From Geminocystis sp. NIES-3708 (GTDB lineage Bacteria > Cyanobacteriota > Cyanobacteriia > Cyanobacteriales > Cyanobacteriaceae), in assembly GCF_001548095.1 (NCBI RefSeq), contig NZ_AP014815.1, forward strand, positions 3,719,656-3,783,655: a stretch of DNA of 64,000 nt. Direction: 5' to 3'. The position numbers were made by a program, and so were the translations under genes. The notes under the pieces are model-generated. The model ran no database searches. It was not told the origin of the DNA and saw only the letters and a list, made by a program, of their open reading frames with translations. Below are positions 21,447-31,460 of this stretch, piece after piece (the stretch's first letter is position 1; each line of letters begins with the position of its first letter).

Positions 21447-22229
21447 TCAAGGCTGTGATGAAATAATCTCATCTTCAGATTTAGTTTTAAAACTGGGAAA
21501 ATCATCAGGTAATTCTCCTTGAAAATCATTCAGTATAGTATCCCAAAAATTTTGAATTGTATGTAAACAATCTAATTCACATTCATTTATTGCTGAGTAA
21601 AGTTCATCATCCGATATTGTCTCATCATCACACCAACTATAAAGTAAAGATGTCGTAATTTTTGCTTCATCATCCCCACATTTTTGATAAATTGAATAAA
21701 GTGATGGCATTTTCTGTTTCTGCTTAAAGAGTGAGTCAACTGCTATTGACCAAATCCAAGCCCATTTAAAATCAAGAAATTCCTCTGACTCAAACCAATC
21801 CCACCCCGATTCTTCTCTCTTTAGTCTCTCTTTTTCATCATCATCGAGTATATCTTCATTAATAATTACAGCCTGTTTGTGGACTAAGCAATTTTCATCA
21901 TTATCCCAATCCACATCTCCTTCTGATTTAATCCAACTGGTGGTAAAGTAATAACCTTGACTTTGAGAGGGTCTGACATATTCAAAACAGGCAATCGCCC
22001 CTTTGTACTTTTCTAATAGTTTTTGAAATAGTAAATCTGCATATCCCTCCTCATAACCATAACAACCATAGCCTCCTGAGTTGAAGAAAACTGAGTTATC
22101 TTCAATCCTTAAATCATTAACGGCGGAAGTCTCATAATCATCATCATTATCGATTTCTTCGATTAATTGTTTGACTTTTTCTGGTTCTAAACTGATTACT
22201 TCTGCATGAGAATGCCAAGATACGCCCAT
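21447..22229 (-). CDS. Acidic hypothetical protein, 260 residues
   Basis: No family recognised. The protein is soluble and strongly acidic, with an aromatic-rich centre (ESGWDWFESEEF, FKWAWIWSIAVDSLF) and an N-terminal MGVSWHSHAEVISLEPE. A glycine/tyrosine patch, GGYGCYGYEEGYADLLF, lies at about 52-68. No signal peptide or membrane segment. The ATG at 22229 has no clear Shine-Dalgarno. The frame is intact and codon use resembles its neighbours. It sits in the accessory island between a toxin-antitoxin locus and a decayed duplicate gene. Function unknown. Confidence 0.6.
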   Translation of the reverse strand: MGVSWHSHAEVISLEPEKVKQLIEEIDNDDDYETSAVNDLRIEDNSVFFNSGGYGCYGYEEGYADLLFQKLLEKYKGAIACFEYVRPSQSQGYYFTTSWIKSEGDVDWDNDENCLVHKQAVIINEDILDDDEKERLKREESGWDWFESEEFLDFKWAWIWSIAVDSLFKQKQKMPSLYSIYQKCGDDEAKITTSLLYSWCDDETISDDELYSAINECELDCLHTIQNFWDTILNDFQGELPDDFPSFKTKSEDEIISSQP

Positions 22230-22271
22230 TGTTTTTAATTCCTTTGATTTTTACTGATGTTTAATGTGTTC

Positions 22272-22337
22272 TTACTATTTATCCTATTGATTTTGAGGAT
22301 TTATGCAGTTTGCCCTTAATATTTTTTGATGAAGTTT
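22272..22337. repeat. 60-bp cassette-flanking repeat, copy A-left
   Basis: Contains the core TTTATGCAGTTTGCCCTTAA within about 60 bp shared with 22994-23057, 26409-26473 and 27120-27182. Copies bracket each AbrB/EVE-like gene in direct orientation. This copy lies past the 3' end of the decayed gene. Confidence 0.8.
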
Positions 22338-22346
22338 AAAAATGGG

Positions 22347-22363: not shown

Positions 22364-22384
22364 AATTTCCCGATACGATTGAAT

Positions 22385-22954
22385 CTAATTAAACTTGTTT
22401 TCTAACTCTTGAATTAGTAATTCAGCTTCTTCATTTTTAACAATACGAACGGATGTAGGAATGGGATGACGTATATTAAATTTGTTAAAAATATCCCCTG
22501 CGGTAATAGCATTTTCGATTTTGTCCGCTACACATTACCACTCAATTTTTAATCGATGCAAATGTTGACCATTTTTAACGTTTTCCGATGAATCAATTGG
22601 AATTAGTTGATAGCTAGAATCTTTTTGAATCATACCCCAACCGATCGCACCAAAACTACTAGCATAAGCAATTATAGTATCTCCTTGATGATAAGAAGTT
22701 AAAAGTTTTTCTCCCTCGTCACCAGCCTGATTAGTAAAGTTAGCGGTAATAATTTGATTAGTTTTCAGATATTCCCACCAATCTTGCTCATTAAAACCAA
22801 TATTATGCCAATATATGTTTTCTGAAATGGATAATAAACGAATTTCCCCTTCTTTGACGATAATTCTGACTTTATCGCCGAAATTAGCTTTTTCTAACCA
22901 GTTTTAAGGAATAGAAAGCTCTTTGTTTAATGTGATTGATTGAACCGTAATCGT
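22385..22954 (-). pseudogene. Decayed AbrB/EVE-like gene (copy A)
   Basis: Homologous over its whole length to the intact gene at 26516-27073. The start codon is ACG where the intact copy has ATG. Two CAA codons have become TAA: one before NWLEKANFGDKVRI and one in the segment corresponding to LEWQCVA. The reading frame is otherwise kept for 190 codons, so decay is by point mutation only. Recognisable blocks are IRLLSISENIYWHNIGFNEQ, GDTIIAYASSFGAIGWGM and LLIQELENKFN. It is more diverged from the other two copies than they are from each other. Confidence 0.9.
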
Positions 22955-22993
22955 GTGATTATACCTATAGATATTCAAAAAAGTTAATGTTTG

Positions 22994-23057
22994 TACTTAT
23001 TTATCCAGTTGATTTTCAGAATTTATGCAGTTTGCCTTTAATTTTTTTTGATGAAGC
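22994..23057. repeat. 60-bp cassette-flanking repeat, copy A-right
   Basis: Direct repeat of 22272-22337, sharing ATTTATGCAGTTTGCC and the following TTTTTTGATGAAG, upstream of the decayed EVE-like gene. It is closer in sequence to the equivalent upstream copy at 27120 than to the downstream copies. Confidence 0.8.
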
Positions 23058-23070
23058 TATGAAAGGCTTA

Positions 23071-26372: not shown

Positions 26373-26408
26373 TTTTTTTCTCCTATAATGTTGATTCGTT
26401 TCAGCTCT

Positions 26409-26473
26409 ACTTATTTATCCTATTCACTTTGAGGATTTATGCAGTTTGCCCTTAATATTTATTGATGAAGTTT
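26409..26473. repeat. 60-bp cassette-flanking repeat, copy B-left
   Basis: Direct repeat with the core GAGGATTTATGCAGTTTGCC, past the 3' end of the intact EVE-like gene. It matches 22272-22337 closely. Confidence 0.8.
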
Positions 26474-26483
26474 AAAAAGAGGA

Positions 26484-26500
26484 AGGGGTTGAGTACCCCT
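26484..26500 (-). terminator. Terminator of the intact EVE-like gene
   Basis: AGGGG and CCCCT form a stem with a 7-nt loop, followed on the minus strand by TTCCTCTTTTT. It is nearly identical to the hairpin after the VWA fusion gene at 29036. Confidence 0.65.
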
Positions 26501-26515
26501 AATTTCCCGATATGA

Positions 26516-27073
26516 TTAAATTGAATTAAACTTGTTTTCTAACTCTTGAATTAGTAATTCCGCATCCTCATTATTCATAATACGAGAAAAAGCAGCTAGT
26601 GGATGATGTATGTTAAATTTACTCAGAATATCAGCACCTTTAATTCCATCTTCGATATTATTCGCTACACATTGCCACTCTAAATCTTTTAATCGATATA
26701 AATGTGTACCATTTTTAACATCTTCTACTGAACCTTCCTCAATTTTTCTATAGGTAGTATCTTTTGTGATAATTCCCCAACCTAACGCCCCATATTCATT
26801 AGCGTAAGCAATGATTGTATCTCCTTTACAATAGGTAGCATTTTTTTGTTCTGGATTAATACAACTTAAAACATTATTAGTTTTGACGTATTGCCACCAA
26901 TCTTGCTCATTAAAGCCTATATTATGCCAATATATGCTTCCAGAAATAGATAATAAACGAATTTCCCCTTCTTTGACGATAATTCTCACTTTATCGCCGA
27001 AATTAGCTTTTTCTAAGCAGTTTTGAGGAATAGAAAACTCTTTGTCTAATGTGATTGATTGAACTGTAATCAT
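26516..27073 (-). CDS. AbrB-like head with PUA/EVE-like domain (copy B, intact)
   Basis: A 185-residue protein from the ATG at 27073. Residues 1-42 (MITVQSITLDKEFSIPQN, then CLEKANFGDKVRIIVKEG) look like a swapped-hairpin AbrB/MazE head. Residues about 45-145 (IYWHNIGFNEQDWWQYVKTN, then GDTIIAYANEYGALGWGII) follow the outline of PUA/ASCH/EVE-like domains: tryptophan-rich start, GD..IAY, then GALGWG. EVE-type domains read modified bases, but a ligand here is only a guess. Two relatives in the window are a decayed copy (22385) and a fusion to a VWA protein (29068). An upstream start at 27097 was rejected because the homology begins at MITVQS. Confidence 0.7.
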   Translation of the reverse strand: MITVQSITLDKEFSIPQNCLEKANFGDKVRIIVKEGEIRLLSISGSIYWHNIGFNEQDWWQYVKTNNVLSCINPEQKNATYCKGDTIIAYANEYGALGWGIITKDTTYRKIEEGSVEDVKNGTHLYRLKDLEWQCVANNIEDGIKGADILSKFNIHHPLAAFSRIMNNEDAELLIQELENKFNSI

Positions 27074-27119
27074 GTTGTTATACCTATAGACATTCAAAAA
27101 AGTTAATGTTTGTTGTTAC

Positions 27120-27182
27120 TACTTATTTATTCAGTTGATTTTCAGAATTTATGCAGTTTGCCTTTAATTTTTTTTGATAAAG
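27120..27182. repeat. 60-bp cassette-flanking repeat, copy B-right
   Basis: Direct repeat with the core CAGAATTTATGCAGTTTGCC, upstream of the intact EVE-like gene. Nearly identical to 22994-23057. Confidence 0.8.
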
Positions 27183-27197
27183 TTCCGAAGGGTTTAC

Positions 27198-27286: not shown

Positions 27287-28052
27287 CTACTCTTCAGGGA
27301 TTTCTATTTTGGTATTTTCATCAGTAATAATTCCTTCTAAATTGGCATTGGTTAAATCTGCCCCTGATAAATCTGCATTACTCAAATTAGCACCTGATAA
27401 ATTTGCATTACTTAAATCTGCATCACTTAAATTAATATCACTGAAATTGACACCAGTTAAATTTTGGCTACAGAGGCTAGACTCTTCATCAATATAATGT
27501 TCGAAAAAATATTCAAATTTTTCATCCCCAAAAGCATTACGATAACAATTTAATAAATCTGATAAAACGCATGGAGGTTCATCACCCCAATCAGTTTCAA
27601 CAATACATCTATATAGATGATAGAAAAACTCATTTATATCAACATTCGTTGGAAAATTGTGTAATGGTAAATAATTTTTAATTAAATACTCTACTAAAGC
27701 AACTACTTCGTATTCAATCTCACGACCATCTATTATCTCCAAGCCCAAAAAAAATCCAGATACTTTATCTCCTAGTATTAAAACTACTGTTTCCAAAAAG
27801 TCAAACTCTTGTTCTAGAAATGTGTAATTCCTGCTAAGAATACGAGATAAAAAATTACCACCTCCTCCCTGAGAGTCGTAATCTGCAAATGATGCAAGAT
27901 AAGCATAAGGAATAGCATATTCTATGTGATAATCATAACCAAATTCAACATCAGAATAGTTCGTATATTCTCCATTACAGCGTATCCACAGAGGCTTTAA
28001 ATAATCTTCTACTAATGAAAATTCGATCGCTTCTCCCTTTATTTCAAATTCG
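27287..28052 (-). pseudogene. C-terminal part of an IS1-split gene with pentapeptide tail
   Basis: An apparent frame of 256 codons begins at an ATG lying inside the IS1 end, so that start is artificial. The real protein continues from the fragment at 28855-28978. Residues up to about 190 are an unrecognised, acidic, aromatic-rich domain (YAYLASFADYDSQGGGGNFL, FYHLYRCIVETDWGDEPP). The last 60 residues are pentapeptide repeats (NLTGVNFSDINLSDADL, ANLSGANLSNADLSGADL) ending ITDENTKIEIPEE, the same tail as the gene at 23941. Rebuilt length is 293 residues with no other lesion. Function unknown. Confidence 0.85.
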
Positions 28053-28854
28053 GGCATTGGTGATTTTAGGTATGAAGAAGACTAAAAGTAGGTCTCCCTA
28101 AAGGACGAAAAGGAATTGGTATATCTTTAAATTTGAGATAGTGAATCAATAGTGAAACAGAATACTTTAAAATCTCCATGGATTTTGAATAACATAAAGT
28201 TTTTCGATGTACTCTAGCAAGATAATGTCTTAATCTCGTATTTTTCTCCCTCCACTCTGGTCATGTATGTTTTACAGATGATTTGGTCGCCCTCAGGAAT
28301 AAAGTTTCCATAGACTTTCCACCCTTCTGTTACATAAAAATAACAATGCCATTTTTTTACTTGCTCCCACAACGGTCTAAATGTTTTTGCACTTCTATCC
28401 CCTATGACCTATTCCAATATACCCTCGTGAAAATGATCTACCGCTGTCCATCGCCAGATTGGTTTTTTTTTGAGCCGACAAAGGTTTGCAATTCATCTAA
28501 TTCTCCAACTTCTGGTCGCGTTTCTGGATGATAGCTCTGTGGCAAAATTTGACCCACTGCTTTAACCCAAGAGATGATCGTTGTATGATGCACCTGTTTA
28601 ATCCTCCCAATAGCTCGAAAACCCATACCATTGACGTACATTTTTAAGCATTCTTTTCTGAGATCATCACTATAACCTTTACCACTGAGTTGTTCTGGAG
28701 CTATAAATTGTCCGCGACAATGAACACAAATATGATTTTGTTTTCCTTTTTTTATGCCATTTTTATTGATATTCTTGGAGCCACATTCTGGACATTTCAT
28801 GTTTTTTTACTTCACTTTTTTCCTCTTTCTATCATACCCTCATTCACCAACGCC
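28053..28854 (-). mobile_element. IS1-family insertion sequence (degenerate)
   Basis: An 802-bp element with 23-bp imperfect inverted ends. Both begin GGC(A/G)TTGGTGA and, after five unmatched bases, share GGTATGA. It is flanked by the 8-bp direct repeat CAAATTCG (28045-28052 and 28855-28862), the usual IS1 duplication size. Excision restores the host reading frame exactly. Its transposase gene carries inactivating changes. Confidence 0.93.
28066..28800 (-). pseudogene. IS1 transposase InsA/InsB, inactivated
   Basis: InsA-like part starts MKCPECGSKNINKNG with a C4 zinc finger (CPEC, CVHC) and a helix-turn-helix region (GMGFRAIGRIKQVHHTTI). The catalytic part continues ELDELQTFVGSKKN and then needs a -1 shift in a run of nine A to read PIWRWTAVDHFHEGILE. 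A TAG follows where Trp is usual, then VIGDRSAKTFRPLW and MTRVEG. A further extra A separates the C-terminal block NTRLRHYLARVHRKTLCYSK. The first shift could be programmed; the stop and second shift mark decay. Confidence 0.88.
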
Positions 28855-28978
28855 CAAATTCGTTGTTAACTAAATAAATGGCTACTTCTTCATGTAATTT
28901 GATAGCTTCTTCATCACTGAGAGAATTTAAGTCTATTTCACCATTGAAAAGTTGATTAACCGAAATTTCCTGAGTCAT
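28855..28978 (-). pseudogene. N-terminal part of the IS1-split gene
   Basis: The original start is ATG 28978, preceded by AAAGGAG at good spacing. It encodes MTQEISVNQLFNGEID, then LSDEEAIKLHEEVAIYLVNN up to the 8-bp target duplication. The duplication is read C-GAA-TTT-G in the same frame on both sides, so codons 40-41 (Glu-Phe) join straight to the fragment at 27287-28052. Confidence 0.88.
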
Positions 28979-29035
28979 TTTAGTCTCCTTTGATATTTGG
29001 ATGATTAATAAAGTTTTATAAACTAAAAAACAGGA

Positions 29036-29052
29036 AGGGGTTGAGTACCCCT
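29036..29052 (-). terminator. Terminator of the VWA fusion gene
   Basis: The same AGGGG/CCCCT hairpin and flanks as at 26484, about 16 bp past the stop codon. It was evidently copied together with the EVE-like domain. Confidence 0.6.
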
Positions 29053-29067
29053 AATTTCCCGATATGA

Positions 29068-30732
29068 TTAAATTGAATTAAACTTGTTTTCTAACTCTTG
29101 AATTAGTAATTCCGCATTCTCATTATTCGTAATACGCGAAAAAGCAGATAGTGGATAATGTATATTAAATTTACTCAGAATATCAGTACCTTTAATTCCA
29201 TCTTCGATATTATCCACTACACATTGCCACTCCAAATCTAATCGATAGAGATGTGTACCATTTTTAACATCTTCCACTGAACCTTCCTCAATTTTTCTAT
29301 AGGTAGTGTCTTTTGTGACAATTCCCCAACCTAACGCACCATATTCATTAGCGTAAGCAATAATTTTATCCCCTTTAAAATAGGTCGCATTTCTATCTTC
29401 TGGATTAATACAACTTAAAACATTATTAGTTTTGACGTATTGCCACCAATCTTGCTCATTAAAACCAATATTATGCCAATATATGTTATCAGAAATCGAT
29501 AACAAACGATTACGGCGTTGGTTATAATTTTGATATTGAGCTTTTTTGCGCATACTTTTCTGATTTCCCCCCTCTAAATCCTGCAATAAATCATCAACTT
29601 GTTCCATTTCTTCAGACATACTATGACAAGCAGGTGCAGACATTATCTCTTGTTTTACCTGTTCTAAACGTTTTGTTGCACCAGTAATATCACCTTCATC
29701 AAGGTTTCTGACTACCTCTTCTTTTGCCCGTGAAATATTTAATCTTAAAACTTTAGCATTAACCTCCTCATTCTCTGGATAAGTTGCCAATTCGGCACTG
29801 GTAACAACGAGTAACTGTAGTTGAGCATGAGATATTTTTCTTGATTTTGTTTCCATGTCGTCATAGGCTAAACGAAAATCTGCCAGTGTCATGGGCTGTA
29901 TCATGGCTGGTATTTTTAACCGTAATACTAAATCAAAGGAGTTTCCTGTGATAAGATTCGGTAGTTTATAGTTACCGTATTGTGTCTTATCTAAATCGTT
30001 GAACACATCCACTAATCGTACTTCTGCTAAGGTTTTAATACCGATACTGACTTTTTGCCCAACGGTTGCGATAATGCCTTGTAACTCATTCTCAAAAATA
30101 TTAGGTAACTGTTCAGCATCTTGAATATAATAGTAATTACCGTCACCGCTAAGGGCGATACCCTGCATCAAATCTTCATTGAAGTCGTCTCCAATACCCA
30201 TAGTCGTAGTACTAACACCGTGTTTACTTAAACCATTAACATTCGTAGCGATCGCATCTGGATTAGTTTCTCCTACATTAGCCAAACCATCGGATAAGAG
30301 GATAACACGATTTAACCGCTCAACTTCATTGAATTTACTAACTTGAGTTGCACCTTCTAGCCAACCATCATATAAAGCCGTCATACTTCGTGCCGTGATG
30401 GACTTAATTTTATTGAGTATATATTCCTTATTATTAGCTAAAGTACTAGGCACTATTACTTCTATTTGATCATCATAAATTGTAACACTAATTCTATCTG
30501 TTGATAAAAGTTGATTGACTGCAAAACAAGCAGCTTTTCGAGCATATTCTATTTTTTTACCTTCCATTGAACCTGATCTATCTATAACTAAACCTAAATT
30601 TAAAGGTAATCTTTGTTTCCTACTTTTAATTTCTGGAACGGTAATTCTGACGATTAAATCTAATTCCGTGATAGCGTCAGATGCAACAGCATTTTTGATA
30701 GGAATAAAAGTGATTTGCGGTTGTATAGTCAT
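29068..30732 (-). CDS. VWA-domain protein fused to a PUA/EVE-like domain
   Basis: A 554-residue protein. Residues about 45-225 form a von Willebrand A domain with a complete MIDAS motif (D51-R-S-G-S55), ARSMTALYDGW supplying the conserved Thr, and LLSDGLANVG supplying the Asp. A beta-rich part and a helical region end near residue 409 (KAQYQNYNQRRNR), where related VWA proteins usually stop. From residue 410 the sequence becomes nearly identical to the EVE-like protein at 26516, and the matching DNA continues through the stop and terminator. This indicates a recent recombinational fusion. It overlaps the MerR-like gene upstream by 4 bp (ATGA). The role is unknown; VWA proteins usually mediate metal-dependent protein contacts. 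Confidence 0.85.
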   Translation of the reverse strand: MTIQPQITFIPIKNAVASDAITELDLIVRITVPEIKSRKQRLPLNLGLVIDRSGSMEGKKIEYARKAACFAVNQLLSTDRISVTIYDDQIEVIVPSTLANNKEYILNKIKSITARSMTALYDGWLEGATQVSKFNEVERLNRVILLSDGLANVGETNPDAIATNVNGLSKHGVSTTTMGIGDDFNEDLMQGIALSGDGNYYYIQDAEQLPNIFENELQGIIATVGQKVSIGIKTLAEVRLVDVFNDLDKTQYGNYKLPNLITGNSFDLVLRLKIPAMIQPMTLADFRLAYDDMETKSRKISHAQLQLLVVTSAELATYPENEEVNAKVLRLNISRAKEEVVRNLDEGDITGATKRLEQVKQEIMSAPACHSMSEEMEQVDDLLQDLEGGNQKSMRKKAQYQNYNQRRNRLLSISDNIYWHNIGFNEQDWWQYVKTNNVLSCINPEDRNATYFKGDKIIAYANEYGALGWGIVTKDTTYRKIEEGSVEDVKNGTHLYRLDLEWQCVVDNIEDGIKGTDILSKFNIHYPLSAFSRITNNENAELLIQELENKFNSI

Positions 30733-31460
30733 GATTTTTTCCTTGCTAAAAATTGGATTAATGTTTCGATTAAATATTGATTTAAAGACTCTTGTTCTTT
30801 GATACTATTAGGATAAATAAAATCATCTCGAATATGTATTTCTAAACCATCTAAAACTTGTAAATGATTCCATTGATTGACTTTAGATGAAGATGATTGG
30901 AGTTGACTAAATTGCGGTTGATTATTAATACCCTCTAAATTTGTGTTTAAATCAATAGCATTTTGACTTTTTTTTGAATCATTAATATTAAAGTTTTTTT
31001 GTTCATTAATACTAAGATTTTTTTGCTTACCTTTTTTGAGATTAGCCAAATATTCCAACGCTGAATTATGAGAATTAGAATTTTCCGTTAGATTAGGATG
31101 TGCTGTCGTCAGACGAATTTGAATACCGCCAGTTAATAAACTCTTTAATTCTTCATTAGTTTTACTGGTTAATAAATCATTAATTGCCGCCGCACCGATA
31201 CCATCACTTAATAAACGTCTTACCAGAAGTAATTGGAGAAGATGACGATAACAATAAAAAGCATAACGATTTTTACGGATAGCCTCATCCATCAATCTTT
31301 GACTTGTATAATGCCGAACAAGACGAGGATTAATTTCTTCTTTAACTTTAGTATTACCTTTTATTTCAGGCAAATAATGGGGTAATAATTGATTAGCTAC
31401 CTCCACAAAATCTTCAATTAACCATTCATGATGGCTGTTTTCTAGTTCTTCTAATTTCAT
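30729..31460 (-). CDS. MerR-like helix-turn-helix protein, partner of the VWA gene
   Basis: 243 residues. The segment at about 44-88 (NPRLVRHYTSQRLMDEAIRK, then YCYRHLLQLLLVRRLLSDGI) resembles a MerR-type winged helix: an R-HYT turn, an arginine/tyrosine wing and a second helix pair ending in SDG. Residues about 130-190 are an Asn/Ser/Gln-rich linker. The C-terminal 55 residues (LQVLDGLEIHIRDDF, YLIETLIQFLARKKS) form a further small domain. The stop overlaps the VWA start (ATGA), so the two are translationally coupled and probably act together. The MerR call is by pattern only. Confidence 0.68.
   Translation of the reverse strand: MKLEELENSHHEWLIEDFVEVANQLLPHYLPEIKGNTKVKEEINPRLVRHYTSQRLMDEAIRKNRYAFYCYRHLLQLLLVRRLLSDGIGAAAINDLLTSKTNEELKSLLTGGIQIRLTTAHPNLTENSNSHNSALEYLANLKKGKQKNLSINEQKNFNINDSKKSQNAIDLNTNLEGINNQPQFSQLQSSSSKVNQWNHLQVLDGLEIHIRDDFIYPNSIKEQESLNQYLIETLIQFLARKKS

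Follow-up and report, generated by a model that had tools for sequence, protein, structure and literature searches.

How a VWA protein, a metal-dependent protein-protein module, came to end in a probable EVE-like domain, of a kind that would sense chemically modified DNA, and whether this tail does any work, are the questions raised by one gene of Geminocystis sp. NIES-3708, whose genome (4.04 Mb, 6 contigs) belongs to the same family as that of Cyanobacterium sp. HL-69 (recorded as Geminocystaceae). The gene lies at 29068-30732 on the reverse strand of the window, the 64,000-nucleotide stretch analyzed here, and is an intact open reading frame of 554 codons. Residues 1-409 constitute the VWA protein, with the VWA domain itself at residues 46-214 (30091-30597, reverse strand; PF00092, 7.9e-17, 62.5 bits against a cut-off of 23.8), and residues 410-554 the EVE-like domain, called the reader here (29068-29505, reverse strand, including the stop codon; delimited by its match to a stand-alone gene, copy A). 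The gene upstream, at 30729-31460 (reverse strand), shares 4 nt with the start of the VWA gene and matches MerR_1 at 2.4e-06, so that the VWA and MerR-like labels of the first-pass annotation both hold in Pfam. Domain searches match no nuclease family anywhere in the fused protein, which therefore does not class as a type IV restriction enzyme. A terminator composed of a hairpin and U-run follows at 29020-29052 (reverse strand); its hairpin, 29036-29052, is common to the fused and the stand-alone copy.

The fusion is real, occurs in one genome, and is the sole case found among the relatives searched. A search with the full protein in 60 genomes, this one included, finds 11 genomes with a total of 12 further close VWA loci, at 64-84% identity; in all 12 the VWA protein stops at the junction or no more than a few codons away, eight with the ending RRxRP and a stop, and none is a second VWA-reader fusion (one, L052, has lost its N-terminal part). 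These relatives confirm that the protein is fused in frame at a natural VWA C-terminus and that the boundary, at RLLSIS, is where such proteins usually end. The event had also been called recent, which stands only in the sense that none of the 12 close relatives carries it and is otherwise unproven. The reader itself is rare, being present in 4 of 195 genomes and, in a draw from the phylum, in 3 of 386 (own genome included in both counts), one of the latter matches, in G479 (E 0.003), being rejected as spurious, as it lies opposite a frame judged by eye to be flagellin-like. A species-representative collection yields two loci, which are the contigs of G001 and G031, and relatives of the window-type domain are neither confirmed in the viral contigs scanned nor found in phage records.

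The assignment of the reader to the PUA/EVE-like domains, proposed earlier, is probable by remote homology through bridging families, and falls short of proof because the direct EVE comparison is not significant. The fused protein, copy A, and the G001 and HL-69 copies do not reach the Pfam cut-off for EVE (PF01878), and a bridging domain from Cupriavidus, located N-terminal to an HNH domain in homologue P0002, scores 21.8 bits against a cut-off of 23. Compared as a profile with cyanobacterial Pfam-EVE proteins, the window-type domain alone gives E 0.048 and a probability of about 1.1, which is not significant; inclusion of the Cupriavidus domain gives E 8.3e-5 (probability 61) and a 17-member set E 6e-5 (probability 65), against controls of 0.083 to 0.45 for reversed sequences and 0.018 to 0.13 for the unrelated MazE family. 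A wider family that sits C-terminally on GmrSD and NucS-like proteins, represented by eight members, matches the window-type domain at E 3.2e-4 (probability 39) and the window-type domain with Cupriavidus at E 6.3e-7 (probability 92), with controls of 0.23-0.29 (reversed) and 0.018 (MazE). The ASCH family, represented by three real sequences only, shows no similarity (E 0.22 to 0.61). Searches of solved structures with the domain profiles find no EVE entry, and AlphaFold predictions of copy A and of the fusion's EVE-like part by itself, each from a four-row alignment, have a pLDDT of 36 and give no usable model.

Relatives of the reader also occur on nucleases. A GmrSD protein from a Prochloraceae MAG carries the same domain family at 54% identity, its reading frame ending inside the domain near the contig end, and a PDC-S11/NucS-like protein on a Pseudoalteromonas plasmid (L068:7344-8435) has the reader at its C-terminus (32% identity, E 1e-10). 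The Pseudoalteromonas protein is a candidate defense protein, with viperin about 6 kb away and viperin's kinase also near.

Three similar reader copies lie within one 7.2-kb part of the window: the fusion, copy A, and copy C. Copy A (26516-27073, reverse strand; supported by its reading frame, alignment, and profile) is a stand-alone gene with an AbrB/MazE-like N-terminus of about residues 1-42 followed by the EVE-like domain; its first ~43 residues align with the MazE family over 29 columns in hhalign (probability 72, E 3.4e-5), and Pfam gives no MazE (PF04014) match. This N-terminus is absent from the fusion. Copy C (22382-22951, reverse strand; identified by alignment) is a pseudogene that has lost its start codon, contains in-frame stops, and has a divergent reader core. 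From Arg409 through the stop codon and hairpin, the fusion (29026-29509) matches copy A (26474-26960) at 452 of 487 nt (93%), an extent of match that the first-pass annotation had observed; "nearly identical", its phrase for the two proteins, reflects a high match in slightly strong words, the domains sharing 90% protein identity and 92.9% of 438 codon-aligned nucleotides.

The origin of the fusion is best explained by deletion between neighboring genes, because plasmid pCHL69-2 of HL-69 still has VWA and reader genes side by side, in the order MerR, VWA, a 78-nt gap, stand-alone reader, and pentapeptide gene. The ancestor would have had a VWA gene followed by an AbrB-like/EVE-like gene, as on this plasmid, and a deletion that took out the VWA stop codon, the repeat-bearing spacer, and the AbrB-like segment would have left a single in-frame gene; starting from the HL-69 order, arithmetic on the HL-69 sequences makes such a deletion ~255 bp long and in frame. 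The sister genome G001 (Cyanobacteria bacterium CG_2015-22_32_23) retains a remnant of a VWA C-terminus upstream of its reader gene, with one other gene between, and has its intact VWA gene on a different contig. DNA 3' of the fusion is orthologous to DNA 3' of the stand-alone G001 reader: directly downstream of the fusion is an N-terminal remnant of a pentapeptide-repeat gene (28844-28978, reverse strand), orthologous to the gene after the G001 reader, and a further pentapeptide-repeat gene (27287-28057, reverse strand) matches residues 40-371 of the G001 gene at 30%. The fusion was probably a local event. On this evidence from sequence and gene order, we give a probability of roughly 0.6 to fusion by deletion of adjoining VWA and AbrB-like/EVE-like genes, with the tail being EVE-like.

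The junction, as placed by alignment of VWA ends with reader genes, is the tetranucleotide TCGT at 29506-29509 (reverse strand), which may represent microhomology. With a slash at the junction, the VWA gene of HL-69 ends in AATCGT/CCATAA, the readers of copy A and G001 read ATTCGT/TTATTATC, and the fusion reads AATCGT/TTGTTATCG. Both VWA genes, that of HL-69 and that of G001, carry TCGT at their 3' ends, and copy A and G001 carry it in their readers; a deletion bounded by these letters would account for the junction. The reader of HL-69, in contrast, reads GTGCGC/TTGTTATCG (that is, GTGCGCTTG, with TGCGC in place of TCGT), and the letters that follow CGT in the window agree with this reader and not with copy A; a microhomology of 4 nt consequently hinges on which reader was the parent. 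Synonymous divergence between HL-69 and the window is 0.25-0.34 for the reader genes and about 1.8, which is saturated, for the VWA genes. Because the readers are so much more alike, the genes on the HL-69 plasmid may have come together independently instead of preserving the ancestral order; the reader gene has probably moved by horizontal transfer and could have arrived next to VWA on more than one occasion.

A working product of the deletion would probably be a VWA protein with a C-terminal domain able to bind nucleic acid that is modified or unusual in some other way. Through this tail the VWA part would be brought to such DNA.

That the tail works is only slightly more likely than that it is a neutral passenger. 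In the latter case the same deletion would have produced an accidental fusion that left the job of the VWA protein unchanged, an account to which we assign somewhat less than an even chance. A tail of this kind could be harmless, since the VWA part is whole but for its last residue or so and remoter relatives have large C-terminal domains at that place. The fusion occurs in one genome only and so is not itself conserved, and the decay of copy C indicates that a reader copy is dispensable in this genome. The fused copy also has Tyr at the His of the NIHHP motif, a residue kept in copies A and C, G001, G006, Pseudoalteromonas, and Cupriavidus. Against a passenger, the reader frame contains no stops, and its private changes (8 nonsynonymous and 6 synonymous on about 351 and 87 sites, respectively) are proportioned similarly to those of free-standing readers (5/4, 7/8, and 12/9), although the counts are small and the changes in the fused reader could predate or postdate the fusion.

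The first-pass annotation had favored recent recombination with the gene at 26516 as donor, and this part of it fails. Recent insertion of a copy of that gene, or conversion by it, at the VWA 3' end would account for the 93% DNA identity that extends past the stop codon and terminator; the fusion also has its smallest synonymous distance of three to this gene (0.19-0.23), and its last 141 nt differ from it at 7 positions and from G001 at 17. The first 150 nt, on the other hand, are closer to G001 (9 differences) than to the 26516 gene (15), and the three sites that divide the four intact readers two against two all group the fusion with HL-69 and never with the 26516 gene. Since no such site supports the pairing and the downstream DNA is orthologous to that of the G001 locus and not that of 26516, the fused reader was not recently copied from the 26516 gene, an origin that we consider quite improbable. 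Gene conversion from copy A limited to the last third, the part closest to A, was considered and set aside, with no two-against-two site in its favor. An assembly artefact that joined two similar repeats, conceivable with three similar copies in 7.2 kb, is the least probable explanation, because the fused copy differs from both others along its length, the downstream sequence is syntenic with G001, and the shared letters at the junction amount to only about 4 nt.

Apart from the deletion that we favor as its origin, the main interest of the fusion is that remoter relatives of the VWA protein bear other domains at the same spot. Among 17 loci (L016-L032), 16 encode complete VWA proteins (L021 has none): 5 end at 411-420 residues, 3 are extended by a macro domain (Pfam 3e-36 to 3e-40), and 8 (L025-L032) end in a duplicated ~70-residue domain that has no Pfam family in the three of the eight scanned. 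The slot is therefore empty or occupied by a macro or duplicated domain in these proteins, and the window reader fills a slot that others fill differently. Macro domains bind ADP-ribose. In the VWA-macro loci L156, L157, and L159, a MerR-like gene precedes the VWA gene in two and a short reading frame in the third.

Restriction and toxin-antitoxin genes are often found downstream of VWA, for which "hotspot" is a description, the genes having been hand-chosen without a null model. On pCHL69-1 of HL-69 the VWA gene is followed by a GmrSD gene with a reader-like tail and by genes annotated MazEF, and on pCHL69-2 by the stand-alone reader, a PDC-S37 helicase-nuclease, and SspB. Downstream genes elsewhere encode PemK, a pentapeptide protein, and GmrSD in G009; C-5 cytosine methylases in G008 and G011; HicA in G003; a PIN protein in G020; ParE/YoeB-like and nucleotidyltransferase proteins in G004; and GmrSD in G013 and G042. 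Two genes scanned in G002 and one in G001 have no Pfam match. These scans, of hand-chosen genes, left out G012, G045, G047, G049, and G053. Small proteins with the pattern LxWTKNVxP...GDLIxLxQHxxV also lie beside VWA (L076:4054-4533, L158:11012-11596, and a G012 gene in L044); by eye this family looks like another PUA-type reader, and the two members scanned have no Pfam match.

The pattern would fit a conserved MerR-like/VWA pair on whose downstream side restriction, toxin-antitoxin, pentapeptide-repeat, and reader genes accumulate. A bolder proposal, which we regard as rather unlikely, is that the pair forms the core of an uncharacterized cyanobacterial defense or conflict module. Its C-terminal slot would accept interchangeable readers (macro for ADP-ribose marks, EVE-like for modified bases) that work with neighboring GmrSD-type nucleases; the fusion would be a Rosetta Stone for this coupling, and the AbrB/EVE-like paralogues, of which A and C have near-identical ends and different cores, would shuffle reader specificity. 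Should the pair act together with readers of modification, its fusions to macro and EVE-like domains would give it a testable role in the sensing of marked nucleic acid; if it does not, the locus is still a clear snapshot of a gene fusion arising by deletion among defense-type genes.

Several known systems resemble parts of this arrangement. Among them are the MerR/VWA-macro proteins of G045, G047, and G049, which belong to the same VWA family (45-51% identity) and whose extra domain starts at the same place, although theirs is a macro domain and that of the window EVE-like. EVE-HNH endonucleases such as VcaM4I (PDB 6yex; PMC7897488) are related through Cupriavidus P0002, the HNH part of which matches 6yex at 2.7e-24 in phmmer, leaving the EVE part uncovered; the window protein differs in having no nuclease and in that its domain is C-terminal and has no Pfam EVE match. 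EVE domains on GmrSD type IV restriction enzymes are described as "rare fusions" in an EVE survey (PMC7641849), and they have counterparts in the Prochloraceae GmrSD protein and in a more distantly related C-terminal domain on GmrSD near VWA in pCHL69-1 and G009, but the partner in the window is VWA and not GmrSD. MoxR-vWA ternary conflict systems, which according to PMC8195603 occur mainly in multicellular bacteria including cyanobacteria, likewise combine vWA, within conflict loci, with C-terminal domains that vary; the partner in the window is instead MerR-like, and no MoxR-like gene is recognized by eye among the reading frames around the pair. The combination of VWA with EVE is absent from the main text of the EVE survey, with no mention of VWA or von Willebrand (PMC7641849), and PMC7159879 contains none of the whole words EVE, macro domain, modified base, MerR, or PUA. 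A full-text search of the literature lists a single work, in two versions, for the EVE domain together with von Willebrand, and does not pair AbrB with an EVE domain.

Copies A and C differ unevenly along their length. Across the 5' repeat and the AbrB-like part, 270 of 293 sites are identical; the count is only 236 of 336 in the reader core and 133 of 151 for the 3' end and repeat. These figures are sums of 60-column bins, with segment limits set after inspection of the bins. The core of copy C is identical to the Prochloraceae GmrSD reader at 61 of 98 positions and that of copy A at 52 of 92. In a sample of two copies, this suggests that reader cores may be exchanged between conserved ends, as in specificity-domain exchange.

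An intergenic repeat of ~70 bp flanks both copies, downstream and upstream of copy A at 26402-26474 and 27115-27185, and downstream and upstream of copy C at 22267-22338 and 22989-23059 (all reverse strand). In the window it has the same strand as the adjoining genes; it occurs in 8 of 15 genomes, own included, lies directly after VWA in G002, G006, G011, and G013, and is also present at L038, L050, L052, L067, and L075-L079. The repeat could be an integron-like recombination site or platform or, equally well, a terminator-promoter spacer duplicated with its genes. A transposase-like fragment (28438-28800) lies beside the pentapeptide-repeat gene that is broken past its N-terminus (28844-28978). 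The gene at 21447-22229, whose product begins MGVSW, has a homologue at L038:4642-5373, and in both genomes it adjoins a reader gene.
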